In this document: positions 29,770 to 64,000 of the stretch, one piece after another | Layout of the letters: every line of letters begins with the position of its first letter | Position numbering within the stretch: the first letter of the stretch is position 1 | Source of the DNA: a virus | Virus record (IMG/VR): IMGVR_UViG_3300008113_004623 | Coordinates: 1 to 64,000 of that record | Reading direction: 5' to 3' (one strand) | DNA: 64,000 nt | Notes under the pieces: generated by a model | Told to the model about the DNA's origin: nothing | Database searches by the model: none | Seen by the model: only the letters and a program-made list of their open reading frames with translations | Made by a program: the position numbers and the translations under genes

Positions 29770-29770
29770 C

Positions 29771-30325: not shown

Positions 30326-30333
30326 AATAAACT

Positions 30334-33300: not shown

Positions 33301-34133
33301 AGTACGAAAATATAAACTTCATATCTTCTGAGCCTCTAATTGCCGAGGTTAAACAAGAACTTAAAAGTTACTTTGAATCAGGAGCTATTTCTGAAATTTT
33401 AATACCTACATTTATAGATCAAGCATTACGCAAGTTAAAGGTGATGGTTTTAAAACCTGAAGATGTAATTCTTCACTTTGTTAATTATAAGTCTGAATTA
33501 CCTTGTGACTTTGCTTTACTTGATCGTGCAGTTCTTTATGATTCAGATATTACTTTTTCTTCTGGAATGACTTCTTTAAAAGGGTATTGGTATCGTTCTT
33601 ATGAAGTTCTTGAAGGGTGCGTAGACTGTAATCCTAAGACAGAGTTCTTTGAGCAGCTAATGATTCCTACTCCTGGGTTTAAAATAACAATGAAGAAACC
33701 TAAGTGGGTAAGAGTTTATCACGGATCTAAATCTTTGTGTACTGAGGGCTGCCCAAACTTAAACGAGCCTGGTCCTGAGATTATTCAAATTCATAATAAC
33801 AAAACCGTAAGTTCTTCTTTTGAAGAGGGCTGTATACACGTAAGATATTTTTCTCGTCCTGTTGACGACGACGGTATTCCTACAGTTCCAGAAATTTTGG
33901 AAGTTGAAGAATACATAAAAGCTTATTTAAAATTTAAATTCTTTGAAATCTTATGGCACTCTCAGATTGATGAAAGTGCTGCTCAAGTAGAAAAGAAATT
34001 TCAGTACTACAAACAAGACCAACTTGCTAAGTTACAGGCTGCATTTTCTTATCTGCTTACCAAGACCAAACAGCAAATTGCTGATAGCGTAGTAAAGGGT
34101 AGAAAACAATTCGTTAAATACCACATTAAATAA
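33297..34133 (+). CDS. Collar/ring (tail tubular) protein candidate, 278 aa
   Basis: The N-terminal helices (PLIAEVKQELKSYFESGAIS, then TFIDQALRKLKVMVLKPED) and the beta-rich core (YKSELPCDFALLDRAVLYDS) have the order seen in ring/adaptor proteins of short-tailed phages. The core includes a CVDCNP pair and a CTEGCPN pair. The C-terminal helix-rich segment (VEEYIKAYLKFKFFEILWHS) would line the channel. It lies immediately before the tail hub gene and overlaps its start by one base. It is probably the last ring between portal and tail hub. The cysteine pairs fit the cysteine-rich theme of this block. Confidence 0.6.
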   Translation: MKYENINFISSEPLIAEVKQELKSYFESGAISEILIPTFIDQALRKLKVMVLKPEDVILHFVNYKSELPCDFALLDRAVLYDSDITFSSGMTSLKGYWYRSYEVLEGCVDCNPKTEFFEQLMIPTPGFKITMKKPKWVRVYHGSKSLCTEGCPNLNEPGPEIIQIHNNKTVSSSFEEGCIHVRYFSRPVDDDGIPTVPEILEVEEYIKAYLKFKFFEILWHSQIDESAAQVEKKFQYYKQDQLAKLQAAFSYLLTKTKQQIADSVVKGRKQFVKYHIK

Positions 34134-37100: not shown

Positions 37101-40100
37101 TTGGGGTACGTATAGACGAAGCTGCTTTGACTTCTTTGTTAAATCAAAAGAAAGCAGACGGAACTTATGCATACACTGTTTACGATCCTATTAAAAAGAC
37201 TAACGTTCCAATTAAAGACGTTATTTGTGGATACGAACTGGTGCATGCAACTCGCGTAGGTAACAAGTCTGTTATAGCAAAAGGTCTTTTATATGACGTA
37301 GGTGTATTTGAAGATAACTCTGGAGATGGTCCTATCAAGAAATACTACTATCCTAACTACCCATACAACGATTTATTTGCTGATCCCTACTTGATGAATG
37401 ATTCAAGATGGTATCAGGAAAGTGAAAAGGTATTGGAAGAAGACGGTTCTACTGGCGTAGGTGGTGTAGGTGGATTTGCCAATGTTCCTATTATCGGTAA
37501 CAACAGATACACTTTCTATTCTCCCGATACATCTTTCCAATATCCTAAGATTGGAACAGAGCTTAAATTAGAGACCATTGAGTTTGGTAAAGTACTAGGT
37601 CACTTTATGCCAGTGGCTGAACACCCTCGCTATAGATTCTTAAAGAAACAAGCGTTTATTGACGCAGGTACTTTGGCTTCTCTTATTTCTTTTGAGCAAA
37701 AATCAGAGACTGAAGCCGACATTTCTGTTACCGTAGGAGGTAGAAACCGAAGTGCATTTACTGCTAGAATAGATAAACTGTTTACTAACGAACAATTATT
37801 CTTGGATATAGCCGAGAAACTTATTCCATTTGTAAACTTTGCTTATCAGTATAATTCAATTGCTACTTATAACCAATATGTTGCAATAGACCCACTTAAC
37901 CTTCCTTCCATACATAGAGGAAAGTCACGTAGGTTTCACAATAGACTTAGAGAAACTTCAGTTTATCTTAAACTAAGAGATTATCTTCCATTACACTCTA
38001 CTCAGATTATAGATAATAGTCGTTACATAGCCTCGAATCATGCTTCTAGTAATCCACAAGATTTAACTGAAGACAGATTAACTAGAGCCTATTACTCTTC
38101 AGTAAAACGACAATTCCCTAATCAGTACGGTCCACTTGAAAACTTACGTTATGTAAACACAGGTTATCGTCAAGATATTATCACACATGCTGGGGGTTCA
38201 GTAAGTTTATCTTATAAATACTATCCTGCTTTTGGAGGAGATACTTACATTACACCTTTTGCTATTAAGCGTAAACATTCTTTCTTTACAAGAAACTTAG
38301 TTAACCTTCCAGCCAAAGCCGATGAGATGCCATTTGACTACTGGTTATTTCCTAACTTAGGATATCCAAAGTTTTTTATTGGGACCAGTTCAAATATGGA
38401 CAGCTTAAATTCTGGAGACATTGCTGCGTTTATTGCTGGTATTGCTATTGCTGTGGCCGCTAGTTACGGCTTCACTGCTACAGGAGGTTTAGCTGGCGTA
38501 GGAAATTACTTAACTCAAATTACTACCAACTACGTTTTTATGAATGGTGCAGCTCCTTTTATTACTTTAGGAGTTAATGCTATTTGGAGCAAGTTTGTTA
38601 AGAAAACATCTTTAGACAAAGCAGAAAATACCAGATATCATAAAGACGGTATTTTTTATACAGCGTCTTATGGTATTCCAATTTTCTTTGTAGAGTCTGA
38701 CGTAAACCTACACTTCCGTCACGGTCGTGATTTAGACAAAGAGAACTTCTACCCTAACGTAGGTGGAGGAGTTCCTGATGACTGGTTGCAAGAAGCTACT
38801 GTACCGATTAAGTTTGATAACTACTATCACTACAACGCGACTTACTCTGTACAAAATATGTCGCCTAACCAGCCCTATCGATTAAAGTACCCTAACTTAG
38901 AGTGTATTATTAATCACCAGAACAGAGTAATCTATTCAGATCAGGCTAGTGATTCTAATCTTACCTCAGACAAGTGGTTAGCTTTCCGTCCAGGAAACTT
39001 CTACGACTTCCCTAAACAAGGTGGCCGCTTAATTGATTTAAATGCAGGAGAGAGCGAAAGAGTGTATGCTCGATTTGAAAATACCACTAAAGTATACAAT
39101 GCTCGTATTGTATTAAGTTCTACTTCTCCTTATCAGTTAGAGATAGGCAACGCAGATATGTTCAAGCAGAAGCCTGTAGATTTGTCTGCTACTGACTTAG
39201 GATATATTGGATCTCAGCACAAAGCGTATGTACGTTGTGAGTACGGAACATTCTGGGTGGATGCTAAACGTGGTCACGTTTATCAAATCACTGGACAAGG
39301 ATTTAACGAGATTAAGTCTGAATTAAACTATAACTGGTTTAAAGAAAACCTACCATTCCAAATTCTAAAAGACTTCCCTGAAGCAGACGTAGATGTTCCT
39401 TCATTGGGTATTGGAATTATTATGGGCTGGGACGAGCGTTTTGAGCGTATCTTTATAACTAAGTTAGACTACAGAGTAAGACTTCAGTACAGAACAGGTA
39501 CTACTAAAGTAGAATACATAACCGATAGACTAGACCCTGACTATCGCTATTACGTTCTTAATACCAACGGAGTACGTACACGTATTGACTTTAGTCAGAA
39601 AGAATACTTTGAGAACAAGTCATGGACTGTAGCATATAGCCCAAAGATGAAGAACTTTATTTCTTTCTATTCTTTCATGCCTAACTTCTTTATTCCTCAG
39701 TTGGGACACTTCCAAACTATCATAACTACTCCACTAGGATCATCTTTGTGGAATCATAATTTAAGCCCATATATTTACCAAACTTATTACGGTAAATTAT
39801 ATCCTTACATTATTGAGTACTTAATAAATAGTTTGCCAATCAACTCGTCTGTAACTAGTATATCTTTAATTCAAGATATCCAAGAGTACTATTCTAAGTA
39901 TGAATACTATTCTTTGGGTACAGCAAATAATAAAAACACAGCTAACTTTACAAAAGCAATTGTCTATAATCGTGAACAATCTTCTGGAATTATTAATTTA
40001 ATACCTGAAGTTTTTGGTAACACTAGACAAAAGATTTTGTATCCAAGAATGACCCCTACTGGTATTGAGGCTCTTCTTTCTAGGAGAGAAAACAAATATA

Positions 40101-40357
40101 CCTTTAATGGTTTCTGGAACATAGCAGCGCAGTCAAACGGACAATCTTTATGGACTACTAAGTGGGAAGATCTACAGAATAATTATTTTATTGATAAGTT
40201 GCCAAACACAAAAGCAATTAGGAATCTAAGTGTTGCTTATCAGAAAAATAAGATAAAGGCAGATTTCACAAAAATTAGATTGATTCAAGACAAGTACAAT
40301 AGATATAAATTTGTAAACAACTTACAGATAACTCAAATTAATAACACTACCTTATAA
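34133..40357 (+). CDS. Tail hub / stabilisation protein with PA14-like insertion
   Basis: This 2074-residue protein matches the position and opening of crAss-like stabilisation proteins (P22 gp10-like): residues 1-60 include IGLNLDAITWQVKDNQIT and LNANIQAHDGDSITYTNEPG. Residues about 135-160 (CPAGFTYNPISKKCEQ) and 415-430 (CPEGYTLVADENC) are paired cysteine modules. Between them lies a PA14-like sugar-binding fold (about 266-361; FLGVAADESLRITVDGVVIL, then GSHLIKFEYRNSLGIGMFAY). The remainder is a long beta-propeller-like and tail-needle-associated body. A Gly/Ala-rich hydrophobic segment lies near residue 1430 (IAAFIAGIAIAVAASYGF). It would plug the tail and contact host sugars. Confidence 0.75.
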   Translation: MENKVNQNLIGLNLDAITWQVKDNQITWALNANIQAHDGDSITYTNEPGNTSCYDFTEGELAGFKVVGFTNIVEQSKVILFLTHPDGRSRIGQITAINNACLDIEITEKDCGCKEGTIITENTVFEDLPEPTVSLECPAGFTYNPISKKCEQIAYRALNTELPGVPVIETCIDGGPCGVVSTHGCNYPRVYGDTWTALDPNSYSSIYSTLNQSFWVPNGAGVFNVSTYVKEIAVQADLNPSGGGCRTCHTVSHGFIGFTETVCIPETKKYFLGVAADESLRITVDGVVILDIQAGTSPTESAKRLFANYPGNPAVDNGSTMWSTFNIFPVEFTAGSHLIKFEYRNSLGIGMFAYELYDITLAELTSPSLTKATLQSKRVISNGQPISSQPKRPTTANPPGLGGLFTELTSACPEGYTLVADENCLVRCRGIIYQNQIEITSEPTCCKYEDLVVDDCLSSCEDDCYEYVVGFKASGIAVTDPTTGEVIVIGDPLSTVQKTFSYTDCEGNYVEDFILATNKRFKAKKGTLDLNHPRLVVIQEVLVTGQTQTFSKDNCCLNFDIAFPVNAEYRIDECETKIYYISRNNPPRYFSVEYPYGRDACGEARTCIKESCEDSKIFADFCIPEVHVTDVNDGGQLKAGVYSFAIAYADEQGIELTEYCDLTNPIPIYERSITEQTEYVTSKSVNLKVLHKTKIFEYFNVVVAETVNTVTNYHLVGTYRVNQYADTDQVIYTGDYKSTFSSIVPLIRGPHYETANIIEKQNDILMLADLEEYPKYNFQPFASKINLLWETVQMPADGQFDYSSPEVAYFFRTYQRDEVYAFGIKFRLKNGKYTDVFHIPGRKANSNDLILEQAASNLDVFVGESDCIFPSELPRWQVYNTASAGVPISKDEDLSDEIEKQYNCAIKNHKQGQFAYWESTEVYPCYDEIWGQSTDPNAPYYDPNALAGKPIRHHKFPDSAKVHIHDKQMAHDGEIDHTVTNDYNSTIYPIGVRIDEAALTSLLNQKKADGTYAYTVYDPIKKTNVPIKDVICGYELVHATRVGNKSVIAKGLLYDVGVFEDNSGDGPIKKYYYPNYPYNDLFADPYLMNDSRWYQESEKVLEEDGSTGVGGVGGFANVPIIGNNRYTFYSPDTSFQYPKIGTELKLETIEFGKVLGHFMPVAEHPRYRFLKKQAFIDAGTLASLISFEQKSETEADISVTVGGRNRSAFTARIDKLFTNEQLFLDIAEKLIPFVNFAYQYNSIATYNQYVAIDPLNLPSIHRGKSRRFHNRLRETSVYLKLRDYLPLHSTQIIDNSRYIASNHASSNPQDLTEDRLTRAYYSSVKRQFPNQYGPLENLRYVNTGYRQDIITHAGGSVSLSYKYYPAFGGDTYITPFAIKRKHSFFTRNLVNLPAKADEMPFDYWLFPNLGYPKFFIGTSSNMDSLNSGDIAAFIAGIAIAVAASYGFTATGGLAGVGNYLTQITTNYVFMNGAAPFITLGVNAIWSKFVKKTSLDKAENTRYHKDGIFYTASYGIPIFFVESDVNLHFRHGRDLDKENFYPNVGGGVPDDWLQEATVPIKFDNYYHYNATYSVQNMSPNQPYRLKYPNLECIINHQNRVIYSDQASDSNLTSDKWLAFRPGNFYDFPKQGGRLIDLNAGESERVYARFENTTKVYNARIVLSSTSPYQLEIGNADMFKQKPVDLSATDLGYIGSQHKAYVRCEYGTFWVDAKRGHVYQITGQGFNEIKSELNYNWFKENLPFQILKDFPEADVDVPSLGIGIIMGWDERFERIFITKLDYRVRLQYRTGTTKVEYITDRLDPDYRYYVLNTNGVRTRIDFSQKEYFENKSWTVAYSPKMKNFISFYSFMPNFFIPQLGHFQTIITTPLGSSLWNHNLSPYIYQTYYGKLYPYIIEYLINSLPINSSVTSISLIQDIQEYYSKYEYYSLGTANNKNTANFTKAIVYNREQSSGIINLIPEVFGNTRQKILYPRMTPTGIEALLSRRENKYTFNGFWNIAAQSNGQSLWTTKWEDLQNNYFIDKLPNTKAIRNLSVAYQKNKIKADFTKIRLIQDKYNRYKFVNNLQITQINNTTL

Positions 40358-45558: not shown

Positions 45559-48372
45559 ATGTTAAGGCATTCTTTATATAAAAAGTTTGGTAAAAAATAC
45601 CAGGTAGGAGGTGAAAAAGACCCCGCTGCCCCATTTAAGGCACCTGCTCCTTTTGGAACATATACTACCCCCAATCAACCACAAGGAACTATTAGTACTC
45701 CTGATGCATCTTTTGCTCCTGGAGTATTTAGTAATGAAAAAGCAGACAATACCTTTACGCCCTTTCCTGCTCCGTTAAATATATTTGATGTTAATCAACA
45801 AACACCTGAACCCGAACAGGGTCCCTTAACCCAACAAGAAGTAACAGAGCGTGCTATTACAGTTGACCCTATGGCAGAAGTAGAACCTAAAGAAGAAAAA
45901 AATAAAAATGGAAATTTTTCTGATTACGCTACTTTAGGACTAGCTGGAATTTCAGGAGTTCTTAATTATCAAGATGCATTAAAGCAAGATCAAAAATTTA
46001 AACAATCTATTCAGCAGAGAGATAGTAAACCTGTATATGACTACAATTGGATGTACGGTAGGACTACTTCTGGTGGAACAGAATATCAACCAATTATTAT
46101 GGCAAAACAAGGTGCAAACATTCGTAGGCCACTAAATTCATTAGAAACAGCTAATGTTGAAATTGAAGGTGGAGAATTTTTAATTCTTCCTGATGGCACT
46201 ACTGAAATAGCAAAAGGTCCTTCCCACGCAAAAGGCGGCATTGATACTATATTACCTGAAGGAACAAAAGTATTTTCAAATCACTTACGTCCTGCAGACT
46301 TACATAAAATGCCTGCGCCTTATAAACAAATGTTGTTAGGTGGATATATGGAAGAAGGTGGAGAAGTAGAAGACTTAGGATTAGATTATCTAGAAGACAT
46401 GTTGGAAGATTCTGGTAAGTTTAAAGGTAAAGATGCTAAGAAAACTTTTGCAGAAATTGCTAAACGATACGACTTAAAAGTTTACCAAGATGTACTTAAT
46501 AATCCATTTGCTTCTGCTGTAGATAAAGAAACAGCTCAAGTAATGATGCAGCGTAACGCTAAAATTCTTGACCAACTTTTCCGCGATCAACAAATTCTTA
46601 ACGGTAACTCTAATGGGGAGCCTATGGAGGAAATGAAAAATGGTGGAATAAACAATCCTGGTTTTAAAGCTCTTCCTGCTGAAGTTCAAGCTAAGATACT
46701 TTCTAACATGCAAACTGGTGGGAGATACAAAATCCCAGAAGGAAGTAGAGTAATTGCAGAATCCGATTTAGCTAATGCTCAACCTGGAGATTATGTACGA
46801 TTTGCAAATGGTACAGTAAAGAAACTTACCAAGAAAGATGTACAAACAATTGACAAAGGATTTAATAAAGACTTCTCTGTAATGAAACAGCGTTGGGATG
46901 ATCCTAGTCTTAATCCAGTTAAAGACCAAATGTGGAACAGGTACATTCAAGCTAATCCAAACACAAAGATTAGCAAACAACAATACCTAGATAACTACAT
47001 TAAAACACAAGAGCAGTTATATGCTATTGACGCAGCTGCTGCTAATAACCCTAATATTGACTTATCTAACCCAGAGTGGGATAGAACTTCAGGAGGTGCT
47101 AAGAATAAGCGATATAAAGAACTAGCCAAACAATTAGGATTACCTGAACTTACCGAAGATCAGATTTCTCAGTTCCAACAAGGATATAAAGACCTTGCAA
47201 CAATTCAACAAGATCCTCAATATCAAGCAGCCCTTGCTGATTTTGATTTAACTCCTAAAGGTGTTGGGGACCAAATGTATTTAGGAAAGGCCATTTCTCC
47301 AGCAGATGCTATCTTAGGCAACACTACTGTAAGACAGCTTCAATATTTAAAAAATAGAGAACAAGTTCCTACTTACCAATACGAAGATGTACCAGAAAAC
47401 ATGCCTCCTGGTCAAGCTTATGACTTAAATGTTAGCGGTAGACGTGGTACTTATAGAGGCATGCCTTATCCTGTAAGTCAAGCTATCCCATCCGCATATG
47501 CACTAGCACAAGCACAAGAAACTTTTCCTTATGCTATTCCTGAAGTAGAAGCTCCTTACATAAGACCGCAGACTTTAAACATTCAAAGTCAGTTGCAAGA
47601 TGCAGATAATAATGCTATTGCTGCAATGCGTTACGGGGCAGATCCTAACTTAGCATATATAGCAGGACTTGATGCAAAGCAAAAGTCTTTTGAGAATAAA
47701 CAAAACTATGATGCAGATGCACGAGCTAAAGCAGATATGTATAATGCAGAAGCTAAGATGCGTGCTGATTCAATAAATGCTCAGATGTTTAACCAAGTAT
47801 ACAATGATATGTACGCTGGTGCAAAGTCTGCTCAGTCTGAAGAAAAACAAAAAGCAATTGCTTCCTTAATTACTAATCGTAATAAGTGGCAACAAGACGA
47901 AAACTTAAAAGAGTTTTATTTCAATAACTTTGTAACTAATTACGATTTTGATGGTAGAAATCCGAGTTTAACTATGGATGCTACAGGAACAAATCAGTTT
48001 AGTATTACAGGAGTAAAACCTACTCAGTCTACTCAGTCTACTCCTGCTACGCCAACTACGCAGTCTGCTAACGCTACTACAGCACCGTCTACTGCTTCAA
48101 CAACAACTCCAACTCCAGCTACAACTTCTACGCCTACTACTACAGGAGTACCTGTAGATTCTACATTTAGAGCTTCTTTAAATCCTAATCTACCGCCTTC
48201 TATGCAGTATGGAGTAACTAATCCTGCATTGCCTGATTTAGGTACGCCTGTAATGAAGACTAACTTAAATCCAAACTTACCATTATCTATGCAGTATGGT
48301 ATGGAGATGGGTGGACAATTAGAGACTTACTTGAATCCATTCAAAAAGAAAAAAGGTTTCAGAAAAAAATAA
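45559..48372 (+). CDS. Structural cargo protein with EGGE-GGI motif, 937 aa
   Basis: The N-terminus is basic then proline-rich and disordered. Residues about 199-245 contain a motif recurring in Bacteroidota-phage virion proteins: NVEIEGGEFLILPDGTTEIA, then KGPSHAKGGIDTILPEGTK and FSNHLRP. The middle third is helical. The C-terminal 110 residues form a Thr/Pro/Ser-rich linker with two LNPNLPxSMQYG repeats and a final basic LNPFKKKKGFRKK. The domain order is typical of proteins packed inside the head and passed through the tail. It starts the promoter-driven giant-gene unit. Confidence 0.6.
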   Translation: MLRHSLYKKFGKKYQVGGEKDPAAPFKAPAPFGTYTTPNQPQGTISTPDASFAPGVFSNEKADNTFTPFPAPLNIFDVNQQTPEPEQGPLTQQEVTERAITVDPMAEVEPKEEKNKNGNFSDYATLGLAGISGVLNYQDALKQDQKFKQSIQQRDSKPVYDYNWMYGRTTSGGTEYQPIIMAKQGANIRRPLNSLETANVEIEGGEFLILPDGTTEIAKGPSHAKGGIDTILPEGTKVFSNHLRPADLHKMPAPYKQMLLGGYMEEGGEVEDLGLDYLEDMLEDSGKFKGKDAKKTFAEIAKRYDLKVYQDVLNNPFASAVDKETAQVMMQRNAKILDQLFRDQQILNGNSNGEPMEEMKNGGINNPGFKALPAEVQAKILSNMQTGGRYKIPEGSRVIAESDLANAQPGDYVRFANGTVKKLTKKDVQTIDKGFNKDFSVMKQRWDDPSLNPVKDQMWNRYIQANPNTKISKQQYLDNYIKTQEQLYAIDAAAANNPNIDLSNPEWDRTSGGAKNKRYKELAKQLGLPELTEDQISQFQQGYKDLATIQQDPQYQAALADFDLTPKGVGDQMYLGKAISPADAILGNTTVRQLQYLKNREQVPTYQYEDVPENMPPGQAYDLNVSGRRGTYRGMPYPVSQAIPSAYALAQAQETFPYAIPEVEAPYIRPQTLNIQSQLQDADNNAIAAMRYGADPNLAYIAGLDAKQKSFENKQNYDADARAKADMYNAEAKMRADSINAQMFNQVYNDMYAGAKSAQSEEKQKAIASLITNRNKWQQDENLKEFYFNNFVTNYDFDGRNPSLTMDATGTNQFSITGVKPTQSTQSTPATPTTQSANATTAPSTASTTTPTPATTSTPTTTGVPVDSTFRASLNPNLPPSMQYGVTNPALPDLGTPVMKTNLNPNLPLSMQYGMEMGGQLETYLNPFKKKKGFRKK

Positions 48373-48378
48373 TTTACT

Positions 48379-50037
48379 ATGATTTCGCATAAATCCAAAG
48401 GATTTGTTTATCCAGACTATATCTCTCCTCTACCAGCAGATGAGTTCATTAAGGGCGCACTGCTTAAACAAAAAATGTATGATGAGGGTATTGAGAAAGT
48501 TCAACAGCAACTTGACGCATACGGCCAGATTAGAAAAACTCTTCTGAAAGAAGAGGATAAAGCTTACTTTGACCAAGAGGCTACTAAATTAGTTTCTGCA
48601 TTAAACAAAAATGCAGGATTGGATTTTGCTAATAAGAATAATTTGAGATCAGCATTATCTCTAGGTAAAAATCTAATTAATGATCCCGTTATAGCTACTG
48701 CTGCTGAATCAACTGCTACTTATCAAAAGATGATAGAGGAGTATAACAAACTCGATCCTAAGAATAGAAGTTCTGTAAATGATTACTTCTTTATGAAAGA
48801 CATTAACAATTGGTTGAAAGATGGTAAGTACGGCAGTAAACTAAAGTATAACCCTTATACTGTTTATACAGACGAGCATGTAAAACTTTGGAAAGAATTG
48901 TCTACCTCACTTAAACCCGAAGAACAAGAGTTTCCTGTATTTGATGGAGCTAGTGGTGAATGGATTGTTCAGAAGAAATACTCAGGTGTAACTGCACAAA
49001 GATTTAGAGATGCTTATATAAACGGACTAAGCGCACAGGCTAAGAATCAACTAGAGATGGAGGCTCGTTACTCCTTAGAGACAGGAGATAGAAATAAAAT
49101 TACTAGTTTCTATAACCAAGATTTAAACAATAAAATAACTTCAACAACTTTAGAATTAAACCGATTAAACGAGGAAAAACAAAAAGTTGCTGCAAAGTAC
49201 GGCTCATCGTCTCCAGAAACTTTAAGACTAGACGAACAAATTAAGAGCATAAATGCTACAAAGGTATTTTATGAAAACAAACAAGCAGGCGAACTAACTG
49301 ATGGTGATTTAGTATCTTTCTTAAAAGATGATAAAATACTAGATGCTGCTGGAGCCTTTGCCTATAAGAGTGAAAGTTCTAAACTTGAGGCAAATCCTTA
49401 CGTAGTAGATTACAAGAGAATGCAGAATAACTTAGCGGAATATCAAGCTAAGGCTCAAATTGATATTGCTAAAGAAGAAGAATTAGTTAGACGCGGACTA
49501 AAAGACGGATCAACAAACGGAATGTTAAGTCCAGGTGCCTATCTGCCAGATTCTAAGTATGAAAAAAATCCAGTTATTCAAGACTTTAATCCAATCTACG
49601 GACAAACTAGAAGTATAGAAGAAGCTGCTTTAATTCAAAATGGGCTTGTTAAGTTTTCTGAAGGGAAAACTGTAGAACAAGCACTGCAATCAATAATGGA
49701 TGAAGGTAAACTATCAGGAGAAGACAGACGTGATATTAATGAGATGTTCTTACCTTCTGGGTTTTTAGAAAGACGCCCAGTAGCTGAACAACGTGAACGT
49801 CAAGCAAGAGGACAAAAATTAGTTGAGGAGATGTTTTGGAAATTTAAAGGCATGTACGACTCATTAAAAGGAAATAGATCAATTAAACAAGGGGATGAAA
49901 GTTTCTCTTTAAATCCATCTAGCACTGTATCTGTTTTAGAAATGACAGGCGGTGTTAGGGATATGAGTGTTGCTTCTTTATTAAATAGAGATGGAAGTTA
50001 CTTGTCTCAGATTAAAGAAATTAAAATTAAGAAATAA
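48379..50037 (+). CDS. Helical cargo protein, 552 aa
   Basis: The protein is almost entirely helical and charged. The opening SKGFVYPDYISPLPADEFIK leads to heptad-like helices (EGIEKVQQQLDAYGQIRKTL, LELNRLNEEKQKVAAKY). There is no cysteine cluster and no membrane segment. Such long helical proteins between giant cargo genes are typical of internal virion proteins that unfold for passage through the tail. It begins six bases after the 937-residue gene and ends 18 bases before the 2382-residue gene. Confidence 0.6.
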   Translation: MISHKSKGFVYPDYISPLPADEFIKGALLKQKMYDEGIEKVQQQLDAYGQIRKTLLKEEDKAYFDQEATKLVSALNKNAGLDFANKNNLRSALSLGKNLINDPVIATAAESTATYQKMIEEYNKLDPKNRSSVNDYFFMKDINNWLKDGKYGSKLKYNPYTVYTDEHVKLWKELSTSLKPEEQEFPVFDGASGEWIVQKKYSGVTAQRFRDAYINGLSAQAKNQLEMEARYSLETGDRNKITSFYNQDLNNKITSTTLELNRLNEEKQKVAAKYGSSSPETLRLDEQIKSINATKVFYENKQAGELTDGDLVSFLKDDKILDAAGAFAYKSESSKLEANPYVVDYKRMQNNLAEYQAKAQIDIAKEEELVRRGLKDGSTNGMLSPGAYLPDSKYEKNPVIQDFNPIYGQTRSIEEAALIQNGLVKFSEGKTVEQALQSIMDEGKLSGEDRRDINEMFLPSGFLERRPVAEQRERQARGQKLVEEMFWKFKGMYDSLKGNRSIKQGDESFSLNPSSTVSVLEMTGGVRDMSVASLLNRDGSYLSQIKEIKIKK

Positions 50038-56000: not shown

Positions 56001-57204
56001 TAGAGTTCCCTCAGCTGTAGCATCAGATGTTGTAAATAAACTTAGTGCTTTAAACGAAAAAATTCTTGTTATAGATCCTACAGATGAAAAATTCTATATA
56101 GAAGTAGATAAAAACGGGCAAAGAATAGGTGATAAAAAATATCCTAGAGTTTCTAGTCTTACAGGTAAAAGAGAATTTAGCAATAAGACCGCAGCAAATA
56201 GAGGAACTATTATTGATTCTTTACTTAGAGAATTTATTAAGGGGAATATTAAAACGGAAGGCCAAATGATGCAGGCTTACAAAAAAATTAAAGAAACTAA
56301 CCAGTACCCTACAGATACTTTTACTGTTCCTTTTATTTCTGATTTATTTGCTACCTTTAATGGATTTGTTCAAAGTAATCCTAACTTAGTCTTTATTGCC
56401 GATTTACCTACTTTATGGGGTACTTTTAATGGCGTAGATCATGCGGGTACTATTGATTTACTAGCAATAGATAATACTAATGGTAAAGTTTATATAATAG
56501 ATTTAAAAACATCTACACAAGATAGAACAGATACTACTAATAAATTCTACGAAAGTTATACTTCCGCAGATACAATTCAACAATCAGCTTACGCAGAAGC
56601 GTTAGCACAACGTACAGGAATTGTAATAGACGGATTAAAAATTTTCCCAATTCAAGTGGAATTATCAAGAGAGACTCAAACTTATGAAAGTGCTATAGGT
56701 AACAAAAGAAATTCTGGCTATATTTATGAGTTGACTCCAGATCCTAAGTATTTCCCATCAAAGACAACTCCTCCTATAAAAAGTCAAGTACCTTCCAATA
56801 TTAACGTAGAGTCAGTCACTTACCAAAATAGTCAATATACAGTTCATTTGTCTAAAAATCCTTTTTCAGGATTAAATGAGATTGTGCAAATCTTTAATAA
56901 AGATAATGCAGAGATTGATGTTAACAGTACTACAGGTAAAAACGTAGCAAGTCAATTAGACTGGGGAAAGATTAATCCTAGTGCGCCTAAGAAAATGTCT
57001 CCTGCAGACTTAATGGATGCAGCTAACCAAACGCCTCAGGCTCCTGCTGCCCAAAAACAAACTAAACCTTTATCTGCTGCTGTATTTAATTCAGAAGAAG
57101 AAAATCAAGGTAAACAAAATAAAGACGCCTGTGCTAATCCTACCGATAGATTCTCTCAACAAGGTACTACAAAGGTTCCGAGATCTATTAGAAAGAAACC
57201 TTAG
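50056..57204 (+). CDS. Giant internal virion protein with C-terminal PD-(D/E)XK nuclease-like domain
   Basis: At 2382 residues, this is one of the largest proteins in the window. Residues 1-460 are helical. Gly/Ala-rich amphipathic segments near 462-510 (GDMAPAIATGSILARGVSSG) and 672-690 (KGGLLYSGLMTGMNHYR) resemble membrane-active parts of ejection proteins. An ESFEEEMALLGEALVS helix lies at about 624. At the C-terminus a RecB/Cas4-like nuclease is visible: helix GTIIDSLLREFIKG (from Gly2050), HAGTIDLLAID with Asp2134, VYIIDLKTST with Asp2149 and Lys2151, and QQSAYAEAL from Gln2175. A Lys/Pro end follows. It may cut host or competing DNA on entry or act in replication; this is inferred. Confidence 0.75.
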   Translation: MAKKVDSSFNFLGIDPRLNVGDPNVVKAAVDQSINSNPVLFNAYHTKEILRPQLDEIRREKETERLRNINVNSFNYLAKKAGYDEGYASNLYNRIQDLPNLPEQQATAAYNELAKELDDLKEKGTTSSFGGFDYLSDIGEGLFEAARGATNISHELFGGAKYTDPQEWLGKNKNDQTAQAVLDELFTPSDIYKYAKRVLDSKQKEVSINKFKQNLGDVDGVLQLLESKSRNLNSGNSFDDLLLPVLENQFRTPGSDWYRDAEGELSPQYVKEFQNYVKQGFQEKFDDQSFVTNILNKPARYAKYDLETEALNDYKTVLQKGLFDLVDERRQLLDEEKLVKDSPEDKQYINKIERINSQLDKLVAREKSIDKVYGVSVGDRSGFFKATLGSGYMAFRDLRDFLTPDYFQGPESDANTQVIRNAMYKPEVLRYDKYGNPVLSNQVFYESASGTKANWRGFFESGGAIVGDMAPAIATGSILARGVSSGLALAGTEAGSATLGARVASTAAKTYDKVNKYGSLRLADRISTFATIYATTNERIYEQEKKWGGNAEERARYLAVAEAASEAIGFPDVGILKLTPFSRGLGAASKTAAGISLTRSELAKAYLRGGSEFAKTAVKANLVESFEEEMALLGEALVSHAYADEYARVGREQTEFTGENIIDTFVESFKGGLLYSGLMTGMNHYRATRKNALLDQAEYEAANNPELFKAKLKEMHQKNPSELSEKQLADAIVTIDNLSNTFKSLSQIDNLKDLNTFFDDEDARRQLFTKARQRDVLRSIDFDSLTPEQQEEFTKAKLGGKITKKATAEYNKARQQVSDFLAQTEGQTLSKEQTQEFVALQLKAAQLRSIANTIDLRKLTDSQMETLASMGIIEDKDFQFTQEDLDKMIAEVDTDILKTEKRAFQYAEMTKAEKAEAIKKAYDKKIEAINQVEDPTVLFESLVALKKDYEYLEKNAYGVNPEVLANKASLLDAYQQRFDALTQRDASGANLFEASLRELDINKAITDYNIYELVKLSSRLDQNKDHVDSAFAENLNEELLNAQAQIIENIQKLQGDQKIQALAKIMDQTVKFNTFTYFDQKAFSEFITSYTYGLDSETNEEVEQTMTVSITPEEFEKVRAEVIRMRGIRKSNSMAATGRVDNVSVPTESEEQEDAMRTLARNVAAASSELDDDGFSEKSALEKQYTDSFLKNKEVTEAVQALKDRVFSLFNEGSARAASVLNAFNTLLTNKDTISFDAQLQQVKQALKAEIDALRNVDKNSKSARALEGVLLELDLWTKAAKKMVIQNPAANLGDLTNLEPSRTNVVDLQNDVLEEEFGDELTPAQVQTKQSEIDQLNQEAQRRRSRLLDLTSPARSNGIEVTPDNVIVTDPAVKRRVAFIDALSTMADTKVKILNKRQFLREYLASKYPQKNQADIEQDLKSLLTFFTNIPQDIVDNWDTLTNQDEILASVHQLLGKEFFDKGQLRYYVKNKAQGLLVNPEVIMTAASKDGKVLLQDSYPLELSFIQNTGEGNTKEFSTVPWRLSGRIQGESTDVKILPGDIIAAHTETFASKELLQEFLGKNDKSVLVDYEISEGVLTNKDSFSTMAEVESSDIKNASLKDFSIPTQPGSRVAGRRYKFNLGRLYFNNNGNPVILQNNKLNEEEIQAIAELVFNPPTGNISMSQLDEALFDLINQIDKNNRIVFFPAEALNQIQADGSLKTFYEQMLVPSLVQEVNGKRKYQKLTKEQFIKELGNYYYKVSPTFLSGGARFNESITRFQMKDGVPEVLKQPYLDYIKETHQAPINSEGNVSTVVNKIVYPSTTDLAAQTKALNLQIKNDQQLTSKGKTVGGVNPNSNARSLNPTAPQLNRTASATLNMIPYAEINSFLAKFGIPVKIGYSEEIYNQLVLAIKKDPSILSLVTARIENNQVVTSEYDGGNTKGINLLIGSVTLPNGQKYKVFFKPDEQSAGLNLNINKIEGGFTASVKNTDVPNPTPSNAPRVPSAVASDVVNKLSALNEKILVIDPTDEKFYIEVDKNGQRIGDKKYPRVSSLTGKREFSNKTAANRGTIIDSLLREFIKGNIKTEGQMMQAYKKIKETNQYPTDTFTVPFISDLFATFNGFVQSNPNLVFIADLPTLWGTFNGVDHAGTIDLLAIDNTNGKVYIIDLKTSTQDRTDTTNKFYESYTSADTIQQSAYAEALAQRTGIVIDGLKIFPIQVELSRETQTYESAIGNKRNSGYIYELTPDPKYFPSKTTPPIKSQVPSNINVESVTYQNSQYTVHLSKNPFSGLNEIVQIFNKDNAEIDVNSTTGKNVASQLDWGKINPSAPKKMSPADLMDAANQTPQAPAAQKQTKPLSAAVFNSEEENQGKQNKDACANPTDRFSQQGTTKVPRSIRKKP

Positions 57205-57262: not shown

Positions 57263-60200
57263 ATGATTTGCCCTAATTTTAGTAATCCTAGCATAAGAAA
57301 AGATTTTTATAATCTTGTTGGTATTGTAGGCGAAGATTTTGCCTATTACCTATGGGATAAGAATAATGGACTACCTCTTACTTTACAAGCAAATCCAGCT
57401 AATCTTAATGAAGCAATTGCTAATCCTTTATTTGAAGCTTTGGATGAACAGTTTAATGGTAATTCTACTAAAGCTACTTTAGGAGTAGCTATTACGTTTA
57501 GTAGTGCTTTTCAGAAAAAATACGTAGGATTTAACCGAGCAACTCCTGAGCGTCAAGTACAGTTAATTAATGACTACATTAACAAGTTAGATATTACACT
57601 AGAGCAAGCAACTCAAAATTATATTAAAAGAGCAAATCAAATTAATAGAACATTTAAGAGAGCTGTTAGTGTAACACAAGAAGCTGTAACTAGAGAAGAT
57701 CTTAGTAAAGACCCTAACTCAGTAATTAATCAAATTGAAGATGTTACTGCTCAAGACAGGACTGCTGCTTATGAGTTTTTAAAACGTAACAAGATTGCTC
57801 AGAATATTCGCTTTACGAATGCTCAAAAAGTAGTTAACTCAGGGGCTTATGCACAATGGACTAAACACGGTTTAACTTTATTTAAAGGCTCCGACTATAC
57901 GGACATTTATCACGAGTCTTGGCACGAGTTTACACAATGGTATCTTTCTCCGATTGAAAAAGCATTACTATACAATACTGTAAGAAATAGAGAAGGGACA
58001 GTTACTATAGGCGACTTAGAGATACCTTACTACAGTCTTACTAATAGACAAGTAGAAGAAGTACTAGCGGAAGAGTTTCGTGCTTATTCTATACAGCGTA
58101 ACAGAAACGAAGCGGTTGCTGCAGAACCTCGTATTAGAAACTTCTTTGAGAGAATGTATGATTTCTTAAAGTGGCTTTTCTTTGGTCCAGAAAAAACAAA
58201 AAAACCTGAATCTACTTTTGAGTTTGAAAATGTTTCTGCAATGTTTAGCGCTTTATATGAAGGTAACGTAGATTTATCTCGTAGAGCAGAAACAAACATA
58301 GTAGAAGATTCTTTAAATAGAAGTACAGCTTTAACCTTGCCTATCTTAACGGATGAAGGTTTACAAGAGATAGAGTTAAGCCCTTTAGTCGGTGCTGAGG
58401 TTATAAGTTATGTAAGCTATAGTATCTATAAACAGATGCGTGATCAGAATATTGGCATGAGTCTTTTATTAAATCCTGAGCACAAAAAGAATTTAATCCC
58501 TCAATTATATACAGCAGTTAGAGCAGAGTTAAATGATGTATTAGATAACTTAGAGATAAAAATAGAACAAGCTGAAACATCTAACAACATGGCTGCTTTG
58601 GAAATGTTAGAAGACCAGTACGCTAATATAACTGCACTAGTAAACGAAGATGAAGCCTGGAACCGAGTAGTTGCCCTACATCAAAGTACAACACAAGGCG
58701 AACTCTTTAATATAGATGCGGATGTTACTGTTTCTGTAGAAGAGAATATAGAAAACAGAATAGACGAAGCTCCTGCAGAAGAAAAAACTAGAAACGAAGT
58801 TCAATACGGGGATAAGTCAAATGTTAACCCACTTGAGTTGTATGATCCTTATGTTATTGAGTTAATTAAAAGTTTACCTGACCTAGTTAATATTAACGGC
58901 CAGGTTGTCCCTAGTACGGGCAGCACTCTTGGTTTACCAAAAAACGGAAACTTCAAACATAATAAAAATCTTCTTCAGAACATTCTATCAGGATCTACGT
59001 CTTATGAAGATGCTATTCAGCGATTAATAGAAGCTTCTTCCGTAAGTCCTCAATTAACTTATTTAATTCAATTGCTTCCTAGTCCTGTTAGTGAAACTCT
59101 AACATTAGACGAGATTACATTAAAGAATCAGTTTATGCAGGCCTTGTCTATGCCTCGCGTAGATCCTTATTCTGTAAAAGCAATTGAAAAAACTGAAGAC
59201 ACTACAGTCGATAATGTTATAACATCTAAGAAAGTTATTCAGTTTAATACTTTCTACATTAGTACACTTACCCAAGACGCACTTCTAGAGTACTTAGATA
59301 ATGAGTTCCAAATATCTGCTGCTTCTGATTTTAAATCTGAAACCGATCAATCAACTATAAAACAAAGAAGCTTTGTTAACAAAAGCATAAATGGTTTAGA
59401 GTTTGCTACATTCTCTACAGCTTCTGTATTAGACGCATATAAAGATATTGATAGCACTACTTCCTATAAGACATTATTTGAATTTATGAATGATGCTTTT
59501 GGAGTGGACTTATATCAGGGAATTAGCGAGCAATACCTATTTGATAAGCGTGGTGATATTATCATTGCTAACTCTCCATACACAGAGAGCCAATTAAACG
59601 CACTTACGCAGGTTATTGTAGCTTCTTATAATAAGATTAAGTTATATCACTTAATTAACAATTTAGAAGGTAAGTCACCTATAATTAATAAATTAAAAAA
59701 TGAAGTTCCTTCATCTGTAGAAACTCCTGCTAAGACCTATATCTCTGATGTAAAGAAAAGTTTAGTTACAGCATTAAACACTTTAAGCAATAATTTTAAC
59801 ACACTCAACGCAAAAGACCAAGAGCAGTTTAAAGAGATAGTTGATCTATTTACTAATTCTATAAAAAATAACAATAATCTCAGAACTGAAAGACAGATTC
59901 TTTTCAGAGCTATTGAAAACTATTACAATAAAGTAGTTAAGTCTGCGTCTTACTTAAACGACGAGAACAATATGGAGTGGTCTATCCGTGAGTGGCAGCA
60001 TGTTGTAACCCAAGCAAGCAGTATTAATAATGCCAGAACTCTAGCTGACTTAACAGGCCATTTAAACCCAGCTACAAATAACTTTGTTGGTGTGTCTAAG
60101 TTACTTGCAAAAGCATTTAGCCAAGAGACAGGCGAGCGTAAGTTAAACAGAGATGAAGACAATGTTCTTTTTGAGTTAGTTAATATTTCTGGATACTCTA

Positions 60201-63200
60201 CTAAAGTAGAAGGGAAGAAAACAATTAACTTAAATCCTGACGATAAATTAATCCAAGATTTTATTGGGTTCTTAAAAGACGGCTTAGTTGAGAATCTTCG
60301 GTTTGGTGCAAAATCTACTAGTTTAGGAGTACGTGTAAACGGTTCTAGAAATGAAAGATTGTTCTACGACAGAAGTCGTTTTAGCTACTCAGCTGACACT
60401 GATATAGTTAGACTAGACCCAAAGGTAATGGATACCTTTTTAGACTACTTACGTTACGAATTGAATCGTATGTTTGATGATCGTGCAGAGTCTACTGAAA
60501 AAGAGAAACGTGGATTTGATTTAATCATTTTAAAAGACATTCTGCCTAACAAGGTTCAAGAGTTTAAAGACATAATTAAAAATTCAACCCAAGATAAAGA
60601 AACTACAGTCAACAATATCATTAATCAGATTAATACTGTTAATCGAGCAGAGTTTGATACAGCAGTTACTTTATACTTTAATGAGGAAGTAAGAGCATTC
60701 CGCACCGATTTAGAAGAGATTATTGGAGAAGGAGATGCTAAGTTTGCTGAAGTTTTTGGAACAAAAGAAAACATCAATGAAGTAATAGCCGACTATGTAA
60801 CCCACTACTACACGCAACAGATTGAGTTTTTGCATTTATTTGTAGGAGATCCTTCTAACTTCCAAGTTAAAGGAGAAAACTGGCGTGAATTATTTAAACG
60901 TTTAGGTGCTTCTATTTCTCCAGGTAAACAACCTTTAATAGATTCTCAATTCTTAAATTCATTTAATAACTCACCTAATGGATATTTAGGCAGAGGACTT
61001 GAGCGTTTATACAAACAAAGTCAAAATCCTAATGCAGAAGCCCGCGTATACGATGAAAACTTTACTTACGTTCAGTATAAAGATGTAAAATCATTTACAG
61101 AAGGTCAAGCAGAAGTATATCAACGCGAGTTAATTGAAGGTTACGCTAATTGGTTATCTAGCCAAGACAAGGCTAAAAAGCCTATTGAAGCTTACAGACA
61201 AGAAGCTGCTGATATATTTAAGACTACTATAGATGGTGTTACTACTCAGAAAAAGGAAGCAGACGGTCAAGCCTATGCAACTTTAGATTTTGTAAGGTTC
61301 TATCTAAACTCTATAGGAGAATGGACACCAAAACAAGAAGCGGCCTACCAACACGAACTAAAGGTAGCCGAAAAGATCCTAGAATATAGAGCAACTCCGA
61401 CAGAAACTAAGTTAACAGAACTTAGAACTTTAATTCAAAATTCAAATGCAGGTATATTATTGTCTTTAAAGTTAGGGTACTGGGGTTCTCCAATTGATAA
61501 TCCTAATTATATTACGTTAGGTAAGTACTCGGTAGCTCCTTTGATTCCGTCAACATTATTTGAAACCGATTTAGAAGATCAAATGTCAAATATGTTAATA
61601 GGTGGGGTAGACTTTATTACTTTTGATTCTGGAAATAAAATGGCTTTGCCTGTTTCTAGCTTAGATTTTTACAAAAAAGAAGGCAAGGGCAATGAAGAGC
61701 GTCTAGTTGTTAATGATATTCCTCAAAAGAATATTGTTACTTTTCCTATAAGCGGTTTACGTAGACAGCAATATATCGCGCCTAAGTTTAAAGAAGAAGC
61801 TACTTTGTCTACACAGTTAGTAAAACTTGTATTCTCTAATTTTTATACTAATGGTGAGCTTAATGAAAACATAAGTAAAGTAGCAGGCTTACCTGAAAAG
61901 ATTGATAGATTACAAAAAGCTTTCATCAATGATTTATCAGTAATTGTAGAGAGCGAGAAAGCTAAAATCTATGCAGCTATTGGTGCAGAGTTAAAGGGTG
62001 ATAGAGTAACTAGCATTGACGCAGAAGCATTTTCTGATTGGATTAAAAAAGAATTTGACAAGAAAGATGTTCCCCAGTCTGTTTACGATTATTTAATTAT
62101 TGAAAACAATAACTTTAAGTTTTCTTTAGACGTAGCTCCTCATAGAGCTTTGTTTGAAAGTGTACTTGCTTCTGCTTTATCTAAAAGAGTATTACGTCCC
62201 AAGATGTTTGGGGAAGCACTTGTGCAGGTTTCTTCTTTAGGCTTTAATCAAGCAGGAACTCGTTTTACAAACCCTACTAGAGAACAAGTAAGGAAATACG
62301 GTAACAGTGGTCTAAGAGATTATGGTCGTATTGTAAACGGCAAACATCAGCCTGCAGATATTAAAATTGCTTTTAACTCAAAAAAGTACGGTGCTTTATT
62401 AAACTTAGATTACAAAGGTTCAAAAATTGAAACTCTTGATAGACTAAACGAAGCTTTACTAGACGATGCTTGGGTAGAACTACACTCAAATAAAATTACC
62501 TTAGTAGGTGTTCGTATTCCTGTACAGGGTTTAAACTCTATGGAACACTTTAGAGTAAGACAATTCTTACCAGAAGTTGCAGGACCAATTATTATTGTGC
62601 CTCCATCACTTGTAACTAAATCAGGATCTGACTTTGACATAGATAAATTGTTTATGTACGAGCCTGAGTTAGACTCTGAAGGTAACTTTATTGAAAGAAC
62701 TCCCGAGTTTGTTAAAAATCCTAAAGCAGTATACCAGTACATTAGAGCAAAGAAAATTTTAATTACTGAGCTAAAGTCTCTTAATACTATTTTAGAGAAC
62801 AAACGCCAAGAGTTTATCAGAAACAATGGTTCAAATACTGTAGAAGCAAAAGTATACGATAGTTTGATTGCTAGTAATGGAATGTTAATTCGTCCATTAA
62901 AGAATCGCAAGAAAGAACTAACTGATGGAGAAGAGAGCACATTGTTGGATGAAGTAACCTTAGCTACATTTTCATTAAGTAAGTTTTTAGAAACTCAAAA
63001 AGATAATCCAGAGATTAAATCTTTACAAAAAAAATTAAAAAAGACTCAGGAACTTTTGGCTTCGTTTAAAGGTTACTCTATAAAGTCTGCTAAAGCAGGT
63101 GCTTCTAATGGTTTAATTCAGACAATTAGTGAGATTTTATCTGAGCCTGCTATTATGCCGCAGTTTTTACAGCCTAACGACTCTCCTATTCTTAAACAAC

Positions 63201-64000
63201 TATCAGAAGACTATAAGAATAACTACGGAGGCGGAGGATCAACTATCACTTCTACTTCTGTATTTTCTCCAAGAACTTCTATTAAGATTTTTAGAGAGAA
63301 TGCAACTGGTAAGAAAGCACTAGGTATTGACGCAAAAACCAACGCACTACATAAACTCTATCAACAAGTAGGATTACAGTATACTAACCCTATTGCAAGA
63401 ATGTACTTATTAAAATCTAATAAGACAGCGGATGGACATATTATTTTAGGCGGCTTGTATGATGCGAACAACGAGTACTTAATCTCAGATATTATTAATG
63501 AGTTTATCAACGGACACGTAGACATTGAGAAAGAGGAGTGGATTAACTTCTTTAATGCAGATAAAAACAGAACTAGCGTAATCTTACAGATGGTGCTTAG
63601 TGGTACTCCAATTAAAGATGCTGTGTTAATTGCTAACCAACCTATTGTTCAACACTTTTTAAAATCTAATAAATTAAGCGAAACTGCTCAGTTAATCGGC
63701 ATTGAGCGAAAATTTATTAGTACTTATATTGCTGAAGGATTGAGAAAAATAGGAATGAGTTCCGTGATTGTTAGATCTGGAGGAAAATTTTCTTTACAGG
63801 GTACTATTGAAAAGATGCTTAAAGAAAACTTATTCTCTAAAGCCTTAGACAATTTATCAGAAGCTAATTTTACTCCGTCTGTTGAGAACACGAAGGCCGC
63901 TTACAATAAAATGTTTCAAGAAGCTAATTCTAAGAATCAAGGTGATTTAGCAGCCCAACTAGTATTTCTAAGCCAATACTATGTAGCTAGTGTAATGAAT
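57263..64000 (+). CDS. Giant virion RNA polymerase with metalloprotease motif (partial, runs off the window)
   Basis: The frame is open for 2246 codons to the window end, so the C-terminus is missing. The opening (MICPNFSNPSIRKDFYNLVG, then DFAYYLWDKNNG) resembles giant crAss-like virion proteins. Near residue 217 lies YHESWHEFTQW, a zincin HExxH motif (His217, Glu218, His221), followed by VEEVLAEEFRAY with a candidate third ligand at Glu270 or Glu271. Further on, VGVRIPVQGLNSMEHF (Arg1751, Ser1759) leads to SGSDFDIDKL with Asp1790, Asp1792 and Asp1794. This is the metal-binding DxDxD of the second double-psi barrel of cellular-type RNA polymerases. crAss-like phi14:2 carries a related enzyme in its virion and injects it to transcribe early genes. 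It follows its own -7 element. Confidence 0.85.
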   Translation, partial: MICPNFSNPSIRKDFYNLVGIVGEDFAYYLWDKNNGLPLTLQANPANLNEAIANPLFEALDEQFNGNSTKATLGVAITFSSAFQKKYVGFNRATPERQVQLINDYINKLDITLEQATQNYIKRANQINRTFKRAVSVTQEAVTREDLSKDPNSVINQIEDVTAQDRTAAYEFLKRNKIAQNIRFTNAQKVVNSGAYAQWTKHGLTLFKGSDYTDIYHESWHEFTQWYLSPIEKALLYNTVRNREGTVTIGDLEIPYYSLTNRQVEEVLAEEFRAYSIQRNRNEAVAAEPRIRNFFERMYDFLKWLFFGPEKTKKPESTFEFENVSAMFSALYEGNVDLSRRAETNIVEDSLNRSTALTLPILTDEGLQEIELSPLVGAEVISYVSYSIYKQMRDQNIGMSLLLNPEHKKNLIPQLYTAVRAELNDVLDNLEIKIEQAETSNNMAALEMLEDQYANITALVNEDEAWNRVVALHQSTTQGELFNIDADVTVSVEENIENRIDEAPAEEKTRNEVQYGDKSNVNPLELYDPYVIELIKSLPDLVNINGQVVPSTGSTLGLPKNGNFKHNKNLLQNILSGSTSYEDAIQRLIEASSVSPQLTYLIQLLPSPVSETLTLDEITLKNQFMQALSMPRVDPYSVKAIEKTEDTTVDNVITSKKVIQFNTFYISTLTQDALLEYLDNEFQISAASDFKSETDQSTIKQRSFVNKSINGLEFATFSTASVLDAYKDIDSTTSYKTLFEFMNDAFGVDLYQGISEQYLFDKRGDIIIANSPYTESQLNALTQVIVASYNKIKLYHLINNLEGKSPIINKLKNEVPSSVETPAKTYISDVKKSLVTALNTLSNNFNTLNAKDQEQFKEIVDLFTNSIKNNNNLRTERQILFRAIENYYNKVVKSASYLNDENNMEWSIREWQHVVTQASSINNARTLADLTGHLNPATNNFVGVSKLLAKAFSQETGERKLNRDEDNVLFELVNISGYSTKVEGKKTINLNPDDKLIQDFIGFLKDGLVENLRFGAKSTSLGVRVNGSRNERLFYDRSRFSYSADTDIVRLDPKVMDTFLDYLRYELNRMFDDRAESTEKEKRGFDLIILKDILPNKVQEFKDIIKNSTQDKETTVNNIINQINTVNRAEFDTAVTLYFNEEVRAFRTDLEEIIGEGDAKFAEVFGTKENINEVIADYVTHYYTQQIEFLHLFVGDPSNFQVKGENWRELFKRLGASISPGKQPLIDSQFLNSFNNSPNGYLGRGLERLYKQSQNPNAEARVYDENFTYVQYKDVKSFTEGQAEVYQRELIEGYANWLSSQDKAKKPIEAYRQEAADIFKTTIDGVTTQKKEADGQAYATLDFVRFYLNSIGEWTPKQEAAYQHELKVAEKILEYRATPTETKLTELRTLIQNSNAGILLSLKLGYWGSPIDNPNYITLGKYSVAPLIPSTLFETDLEDQMSNMLIGGVDFITFDSGNKMALPVSSLDFYKKEGKGNEERLVVNDIPQKNIVTFPISGLRRQQYIAPKFKEEATLSTQLVKLVFSNFYTNGELNENISKVAGLPEKIDRLQKAFINDLSVIVESEKAKIYAAIGAELKGDRVTSIDAEAFSDWIKKEFDKKDVPQSVYDYLIIENNNFKFSLDVAPHRALFESVLASALSKRVLRPKMFGEALVQVSSLGFNQAGTRFTNPTREQVRKYGNSGLRDYGRIVNGKHQPADIKIAFNSKKYGALLNLDYKGSKIETLDRLNEALLDDAWVELHSNKITLVGVRIPVQGLNSMEHFRVRQFLPEVAGPIIIVPPSLVTKSGSDFDIDKLFMYEPELDSEGNFIERTPEFVKNPKAVYQYIRAKKILITELKSLNTILENKRQEFIRNNGSNTVEAKVYDSLIASNGMLIRPLKNRKKELTDGEESTLLDEVTLATFSLSKFLETQKDNPEIKSLQKKLKKTQELLASFKGYSIKSAKAGASNGLIQTISEILSEPAIMPQFLQPNDSPILKQLSEDYKNNYGGGGSTITSTSVFSPRTSIKIFRENATGKKALGIDAKTNALHKLYQQVGLQYTNPIARMYLLKSNKTADGHIILGGLYDANNEYLISDIINEFINGHVDIEKEEWINFFNADKNRTSVILQMVLSGTPIKDAVLIANQPIVQHFLKSNKLSETAQLIGIERKFISTYIAEGLRKIGMSSVIVRSGGKFSLQGTIEKMLKENLFSKALDNLSEANFTPSVENTKAAYNKMFQEANSKNQGDLAAQLVFLSQYYVASVMN

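Follow-up and report, generated by a model that had tools for sequence, protein, structure and literature searches.

Organization of the cargo genes

We analysed a window of 64,000 nucleotides (positions 1 to 64,000) from the IMG/VR virus record IMGVR_UViG_3300008113_004623, a record of 100,502 bases, with a focus on the long open reading frame (ORF) that starts at 57263 and is still open at the end of the window. In the complete record this frame continues to a stop at position 65830 and encodes a protein of 2,855 amino acids (aa) that carries both a crassvirus virion RNA polymerase and a zincin-like HExxH domain. The gene order is of the crassvirus type, with terminase, portal, major head protein, ring protein, muzzle protein, two smaller cargo-like proteins and then three giant cargo proteins that we named A, B and C, where B is the polymerase and C lies downstream of it (Table 1). 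Protein A contains a PDDEXK/exonuclease-like region near its C-end (residues 2022-2199; phrog_298 exonuclease, E=1.6e-10). Protein C of this phage is spread over two ORFs of 204 aa (L002:8665-9279, record 65864-66478) and 2,020 aa (L002:9485-15547, record 66684-72746); there is an apparent frame change near a run of T, and near relatives have a single open frame there.

Searches of Pfam, PHROGs, NCBIfam and the PDB with the single B sequence gave no match. A scan of viral contigs with the single B protein also found no relatives, whereas alignment-based scans did find them. Because the single-sequence searches with the B chain returned nothing, the named relatives discussed below were drawn from six-frame searches.

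Table 1. Features of the cargo block in the window and its continuation in the record (residue numbers are those of the protein named; pLDDT, predicted local distance difference test; pTM, predicted template modelling score; HMM, hidden Markov model)
Feature	Position	Strand	Evidence or remark
Two smaller cargo-like proteins upstream of A	45559-48372, 48379-50037		no cysteine in either
Cargo protein A, crAss001 gp47-like, 2,382 aa	50056..57204	+	position and order as in crassvirus cargo blocks
C2359/2382 of A, candidate C-terminal coupler	57130..57132	+	only cysteine codon of A
Cargo protein B, virion RNA polymerase	57263..64000	+	window covers 2,246/2,855 aa; 6VR4 profile match E=7.8e-115
N-terminal module CPN..S..F..L...GED.AY..W, ~residues 1-110 of B	57263..57592	+	HMM matches at chain starts; model pLDDT ~89-97 at residues 11-120
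Cysteine 3 of B, candidate N-terminal coupler	57269..57271	+	one of the two cysteines of B
Zincin-like domain of B, ~residues 170-335	57770..58267	+	conservation; hhalign to protein C domain, probability 93, E=2.5e-7
HESWH (217-221), putative zinc-binding motif	57911..57925	+	H217, E218, H221 invariant in 63 sequences
E266, putative third zinc ligand, in EEVLAEEFRAY	58058..58060	+	invariant in 63 sequences; motif aligns with PPEP-1/Zmp1 EEFFAESFAYY (E=0.12)
RNA polymerase core as modelled, residues 1101-2246	60563..64000	+	pLDDT 87.4, pTM 0.85
RIPVQGLNS segment (1751-1759)	62513..62539	+	mostly invariant or nearly so in 48 sequences
DFDID (1790-1794), catalytic DxDxD	62630..62644	+	D, F, D, D and the next K invariant in 48 sequences
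C2855 of B, last residue	record 65825-65827, outside window		the other cysteine of B
Protein C	record 65864-72746 (L002:8665-15547)		downstream of B

Cysteines mark the ends of the cargo chains

The B chain has exactly two cysteines in its 2,855 residues and they occupy its two extremities, C3 and C2855. The other ORFs of the window have a combined cysteine share of 0.73%, so that about 21 cysteines would be expected in B. The only cysteine of A lies close to its C-end, and C of the same phage has a single one at residue 5. In phi14:2 the cysteines are at 1797 of 1797 residues in A, at 3 and 2179 of 2180 in B and at 3 in C, and in crAss001 at 2339 of 2341 in gp47, at 5, 1334 and 2404 of 2412 in gp50 and at 5 of 1349 in gp49. 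Environmental relatives have the same end-cysteine pattern.

This arrangement can be put as a junction rule: every gene break is flanked by two cysteines, one close to the C-end of the upstream chain and one close to the N-end of the downstream chain. Among 72 polymerases of less than 70% identity the rule is kept at 42 of 42 A/B junctions and 55 of 55 B/C junctions (97/97), and random placement of the same cysteine numbers gave a mean of 0.0085 such junctions with a maximum of 2 in 20,000 trials. At the outer ends an N-terminal cysteine is found in none of 27 complete first chains and a C-terminal one in 1 of 18 last chains. Chain starts were set at the first ATG; crAss002 is annotated as 32 residues longer, and an internal start at MSC fits the rule.

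The pattern follows the splitting and fusion of the genes. No N-terminal cysteine is present in fused A-B chains (13 cases; L141, listed as a fourteenth, is a truncated split case and is not among them), and the B-C fusions of Intestiviridae have no cysteine in the last 30 residues. Further splitting of C, seen in three loci (L039, L060, L089), yields a middle chain with a cysteine at both ends, i.e. an added pair. In locus L199 (L199:1643-18268), A, B and C form one ORF of 5,542 aa with zero cysteines, and the zincin motif has decayed to WEAFR. The rule had been predicted before new loci were retrieved by other queries. These obey it at 10/10 A/B and 18/18 B/C junctions (28/28), a count that leaves out L181, which is crAss001 itself, and L182, L205 and L207, which closely duplicate other loci. 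The N-terminal cysteines are at residues 3-6 apart from two at residue 8. A B-C fusion among the new loci (L180) is without the C-terminal cysteine, and the cysteine-free fusion L199 also comes from this new set. The strength of the rule lies in the persistence of the end cysteines against a cysteine-poor background, together with the extra splits and the fused cases.

Translational coupling was rejected as the cause of the end cysteines. In crAss001 the rule holds even though A is encoded on the strand opposite to B and C, which places the link between the proteins and not between neighbouring reading frames. An effect of codon or stop context is disfavoured, the C-terminal cysteine being followed by 0 to 26 residues and both codons, TGT (165) and TGC (29), being in use at the chain ends.

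The first cysteine of B belongs to an N-terminal module (CPN..S..F..L...GED.AY..W) that starts B in the clade of the window and C in Suoliviridae (L005, L007, L010, L011). It is a mobile start module of cargo proteins.

Elsewhere in the window, the tail-region proteins (29103-32250 and 34133-40357) are cysteine-rich, with up to 6.5% and with 35 cysteines in the muzzle protein, and the cargo is cysteine-poor. The cysteine-rich tail proteins fit a disulfide-stabilised tail. A thioredoxin-like protein (15268-15633; Pfam E=0.00083) with a signal-like start has WHSSP where WCxxC is expected, and thus seems to be devoid of the catalytic cysteines.

B contains a crassvirus virion RNA polymerase

A preliminary description of this stretch, made from the DNA letters and translated frames, had proposed that B is a Crassvirales virion RNA polymerase, pointing to DFDID and to a preceding segment of the RIPVQGLNS type. 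Both elements are where it placed them, and the assignment is borne out by sequence as well as by predicted fold. A profile of 48 relatives, from which phi14:2 had been excluded, matches the phi14:2 enzyme (PDB 6VR4) at E=7.8e-115 over 1,048 positions. Foldseek with the model of residues 1101-2246 returned 6VR4 as the top PDB match (E=2.3e-24), followed by the non-virion polymerase of phage AR9; the match to 6VR4, whose fold has two double-psi barrels in one chain, was judged on the model as a whole and not barrel by barrel. Around DxDxD the residues G688, D690, F691, D692, D694 and K695 (alignment numbering) are invariant in the 48 sequences. The polymerase half of B is a true crassvirus virion RNA polymerase, homologous to the phi14:2 enzyme. 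Packaging in the virion and transcription of early genes are known for the phi14:2 and crAss001 homologues only (PMC10172136, PMC7886860).

In a relative, cr108_1 (L014:15845-16136), the polymerase gene is broken precisely at the catalytic codons (GSD/YDID) in an intron-like manner.

A zincin-like domain precedes the polymerase

The preliminary description had also noted HESWH in the same open frame as DFDID, and this is indeed the case; neither motif is a chance occurrence. Across 63 aligned relatives, some of which were chosen by the HExxH motif itself, H217, E218, H221, Y237, E266 and A269 are unchanged, and in six crassviruses from different families all invariant residues of the domain fall in HESWH and EEVLAEEF. 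The downstream acid had been assigned to AEEF. This tetrapeptide is present at 269-272 and its E270 is nearly invariant, but the fully conserved acid is E266, the second E of EEVLAEEF, which sits in a predicted helix (261-280) and is likely the third zinc ligand. The zinc protease PPEP-1/Zmp1 gives a weak profile match (E=0.12), in which its HETAH and EEFFAESFAYY align with these two motifs. Protein C contains a second HExxH domain (HELTH at residue 323 of the 2,020-aa ORF; L002:10121-10880), with invariant H, E, H and E in 28 sequences, which matches SprT-like in 8 of the 28 members (best E=1.2e-5). The B and C domains are related to each other by hhalign (Table 1).

A Pfam search of the 63 domain members gave scattered chance matches only and no family, and a search of the virus record for Peptidase_M78 found none. 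In the predicted structure both active-site helices have fair to good confidence and the stretch just before the motif is weak (pLDDT ~35-75 at residues 130-210); a fold search with this multi-domain model in the PDB and BFVD returned nothing at E <= 0.001. The earlier claim of a zinc-metalloprotease motif thus stands for the HExxH, the third acid and the kinship with the C domain, which together support a zincin-like assignment by sequence; a zincin fold was not seen and is not confirmed.

Domain and polymerase share a chain in 58 of the 68 ORFs long enough to contain it, in a scan by polymerase motif only. Suoliviridae have A and B as a single protein that includes the domain; crAss001 and Intestiviridae have the domain, or an HExxH in the corresponding position, near the C-end of A. 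GenBank already names a zincin here ('RNAP associated protein fused to zincin protease' and 'ZnMc_tr'). As a common and already annotated arrangement in crassviruses, the fusion in the ORF of the window adds one more case of modest novelty.

What the domain does can be read in more than one way. The preliminary description suggested that it processes the cargo proteins or the polymerase, so that an active protease working after ejection would be the main function of the fusion. The conserved HExxH plus Glu and the second HExxH domain in C speak for this reading, as does the HExxH domain of the N4 virion RNA polymerase, a polymerase of a different type (PMC12633501). However, we found no evidence of processing, and no cleavage site or processed product is known in these cargo proteins; the domain-bearing gp47 of crAss001 was detected in virions in a paper that is silent on cleavage (PMC10172136). 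The polymerase of phi14:2 is active and no such domain was found in that phage, and the motif is decayed in L199, so that the zincin-like domain is not essential for polymerase function. We consider a processing protease unlikely.

After entry the domain may instead act, as injected polyvalent proteins do, on a host protein involved in defence, the envelope or transcription, the cargo thread proposed below being only a ride. Protein C of cr55_1 contains ART-PolyVal (PF18760, E=9.4e-10), a domain described from polyvalent proteins, and where the gene breaks fall with respect to the zincin-like domain differs among relatives. Against this, no host target is known and Pfam gives the domain no family. 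A Pfam search of the A, B and C chains of the window's phage did not find ART-PolyVal. We see an action on the host as possible but on balance doubtful, if somewhat less so than processing of the cargo.

A proposed disulfide-linked cargo thread

It is an unanswered question how phages bring in several giant proteins, each of which when folded exceeds the tail channel, with their order and ratio correct. The crAss001 structure paper proposes partial unfolding of the cargo and, in its available text, no linkage between the cargo proteins (PMC10172136). The end cysteines come in one-to-one pairs that a peptide bond can replace, which points to a head-to-tail disulfide. We propose that crassviruses probably join their separately encoded ejection proteins by terminal disulfides into one thread of ~5,000-8,000 residues, gene fusion and terminal cysteine pairs being interchangeable; we give this joint proposal a fair lead in probability without regarding it as secure. 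Within the particle, one disulfide would connect A, by its C-end, with the N-end of B, and another would connect B, by its C-end, with the N-end of C. The separate gene products would then exit the capsid in a set order and a 1:1:1 ratio, joined in a continuous thread. Giant cargo must unfold to pass the tail, and a linked thread would keep order and ratio while doing so; the reducing cytoplasm of the host would then cut the bonds, the thread would fall apart and the polymerase would be freed. If peptide bond and terminal disulfide do the same work, gene fission or fusion should change little. After entry the zincin-like domains probably work on proteins, a step at which we can only guess. Disulfides do form in crAss001 virions, since resolved ones are described for the tail in the structure paper (PMC10172136). 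If true, a terminal-disulfide thread would answer order, stoichiometry and release together and would explain the free splitting and fusing of these genes. It is the end-cysteine rule, and not the zincin-polymerase fusion, that is novel here. Our literature search for disulfide-linked crassvirus or phage ejection proteins found none; it left most subscription journals uncovered, and an earlier mention of the zincin or the cysteines is possible.

Several points weigh against the proposal. A disulfide between the A, B and C chains is so far unobserved, and the paper with reduced and non-reduced crAss001 virions mentions no inter-cargo disulfide (PMC10172136). For the zincin-like domain, the fold is unconfirmed, the motif has disappeared from L199, and phi14:2 shows no such domain. 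Internal cysteines occur in some new loci (L198, L202, L206; up to 19 in L206), so near-absence of internal cysteines is common, not universal; in cr4_1, cr53_1, cr114_1 and cr130_1, which have many in-frame stops by the standard code, internal counts are uncertain.

The terminal cysteines could also bind a metal or a third partner. Alternatively, they could serve as a docking signal, non-covalent or built on a metal (a zinc or iron-sulfur site that two chains share, for example), which holds one chain's end against the beginning of its successor in a folded complex, with no disulfide. The pairing data fit any one-to-one pairing of ends, and the chains also carry putative metal-binding domains. 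Yet a single cysteine on each side is little for a metal site, the list of heads and tails has no conserved adjacent His, Asp or second Cys, and a tail of 0-26 residues after the cysteine suits a flexible disulfide better than a shaped site. Such docking appears improbable to us.

Finally, the lineages are related to each other: the A/B split state changes about 4 times on the polymerase tree, of which strongly supported branches force 1, and a phylogenetic sign test is without power because independent changes of split state are so few. A few ancestral cysteines could thus have been kept by descent, as inherited chance, in proteins that are poor in cysteine, as injected cargo also is in N4. 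However, the end cysteines persist in chains that otherwise diverge to ~20% identity, new splits are accompanied by further pairs, fusion goes with absence of end cysteines, and the prediction held on newly retrieved loci. We regard inherited chance as very improbable, and the disulfide-linked thread as the reading that the chain ends favour.

Comparison with known systems

The closest characterized relative of B is the phi14:2 virion RNA polymerase (PDB 6VR4; AGO48955, 2,180 aa), a single chain with a homologous core, DFDID and an RIP.QG segment, whose C3 and C2179 of 2180 match the end cysteines of B. Unlike B, it shows no zincin-like domain in the polymerase chain or in the upstream protein, and the chain begins ~430 residues further toward the polymerase core. 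In crAss001 the three matching cargo proteins gp47, gp50 and gp49 have terminal cysteines, and all three were detected in virions (PMC10172136). The zincin-like domain is there in A (the C-end of gp47) and not in the polymerase chain, and A is on the opposite strand.

The giant cargo proteins of Suoliviridae (cr55_1, cr4_1, cr10_1, cr118_1) resemble B in having the zincin-like domain and the polymerase in one chain, in the same order and ~1,450 residues apart, but their A and B form one protein of 4,300-4,900 aa without the N-terminal cysteine. A zincin in the transcription block is also known from crAssphage ctbg_1 (AXH74541, 'putative RNAP associated protein fused to zincin protease') and from the 'ZnMc_tr' note of Rudgehvirus jaberico, in both of which, unlike in the window, the zincin lies not in the polymerase chain but in the protein upstream of it.

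Coliphage N4 offers an unrelated parallel. Its virion RNA polymerase gp50 is giant, injected and cysteine-poor and has an HExxH in the same chain (HELVH at 2228; PMC12633501). In contrast to B, it is a T7-like single-subunit polymerase with the HExxH after the polymerase domain. The N4 proteins gp50, gp51 and gp52 (L179; 4,294 aa together) have no cysteine at all, so that injected phage cargo may generally avoid cysteine. Disulfides near the chain ends also concatenate the giant proteins of von Willebrand factor and mucin multimers. Unlike crassvirus cargo, these are eukaryotic, secreted and homopolymeric; they are not virus cargo, and their disulfides do not substitute for gene fusion as the end cysteines of A, B and C would.

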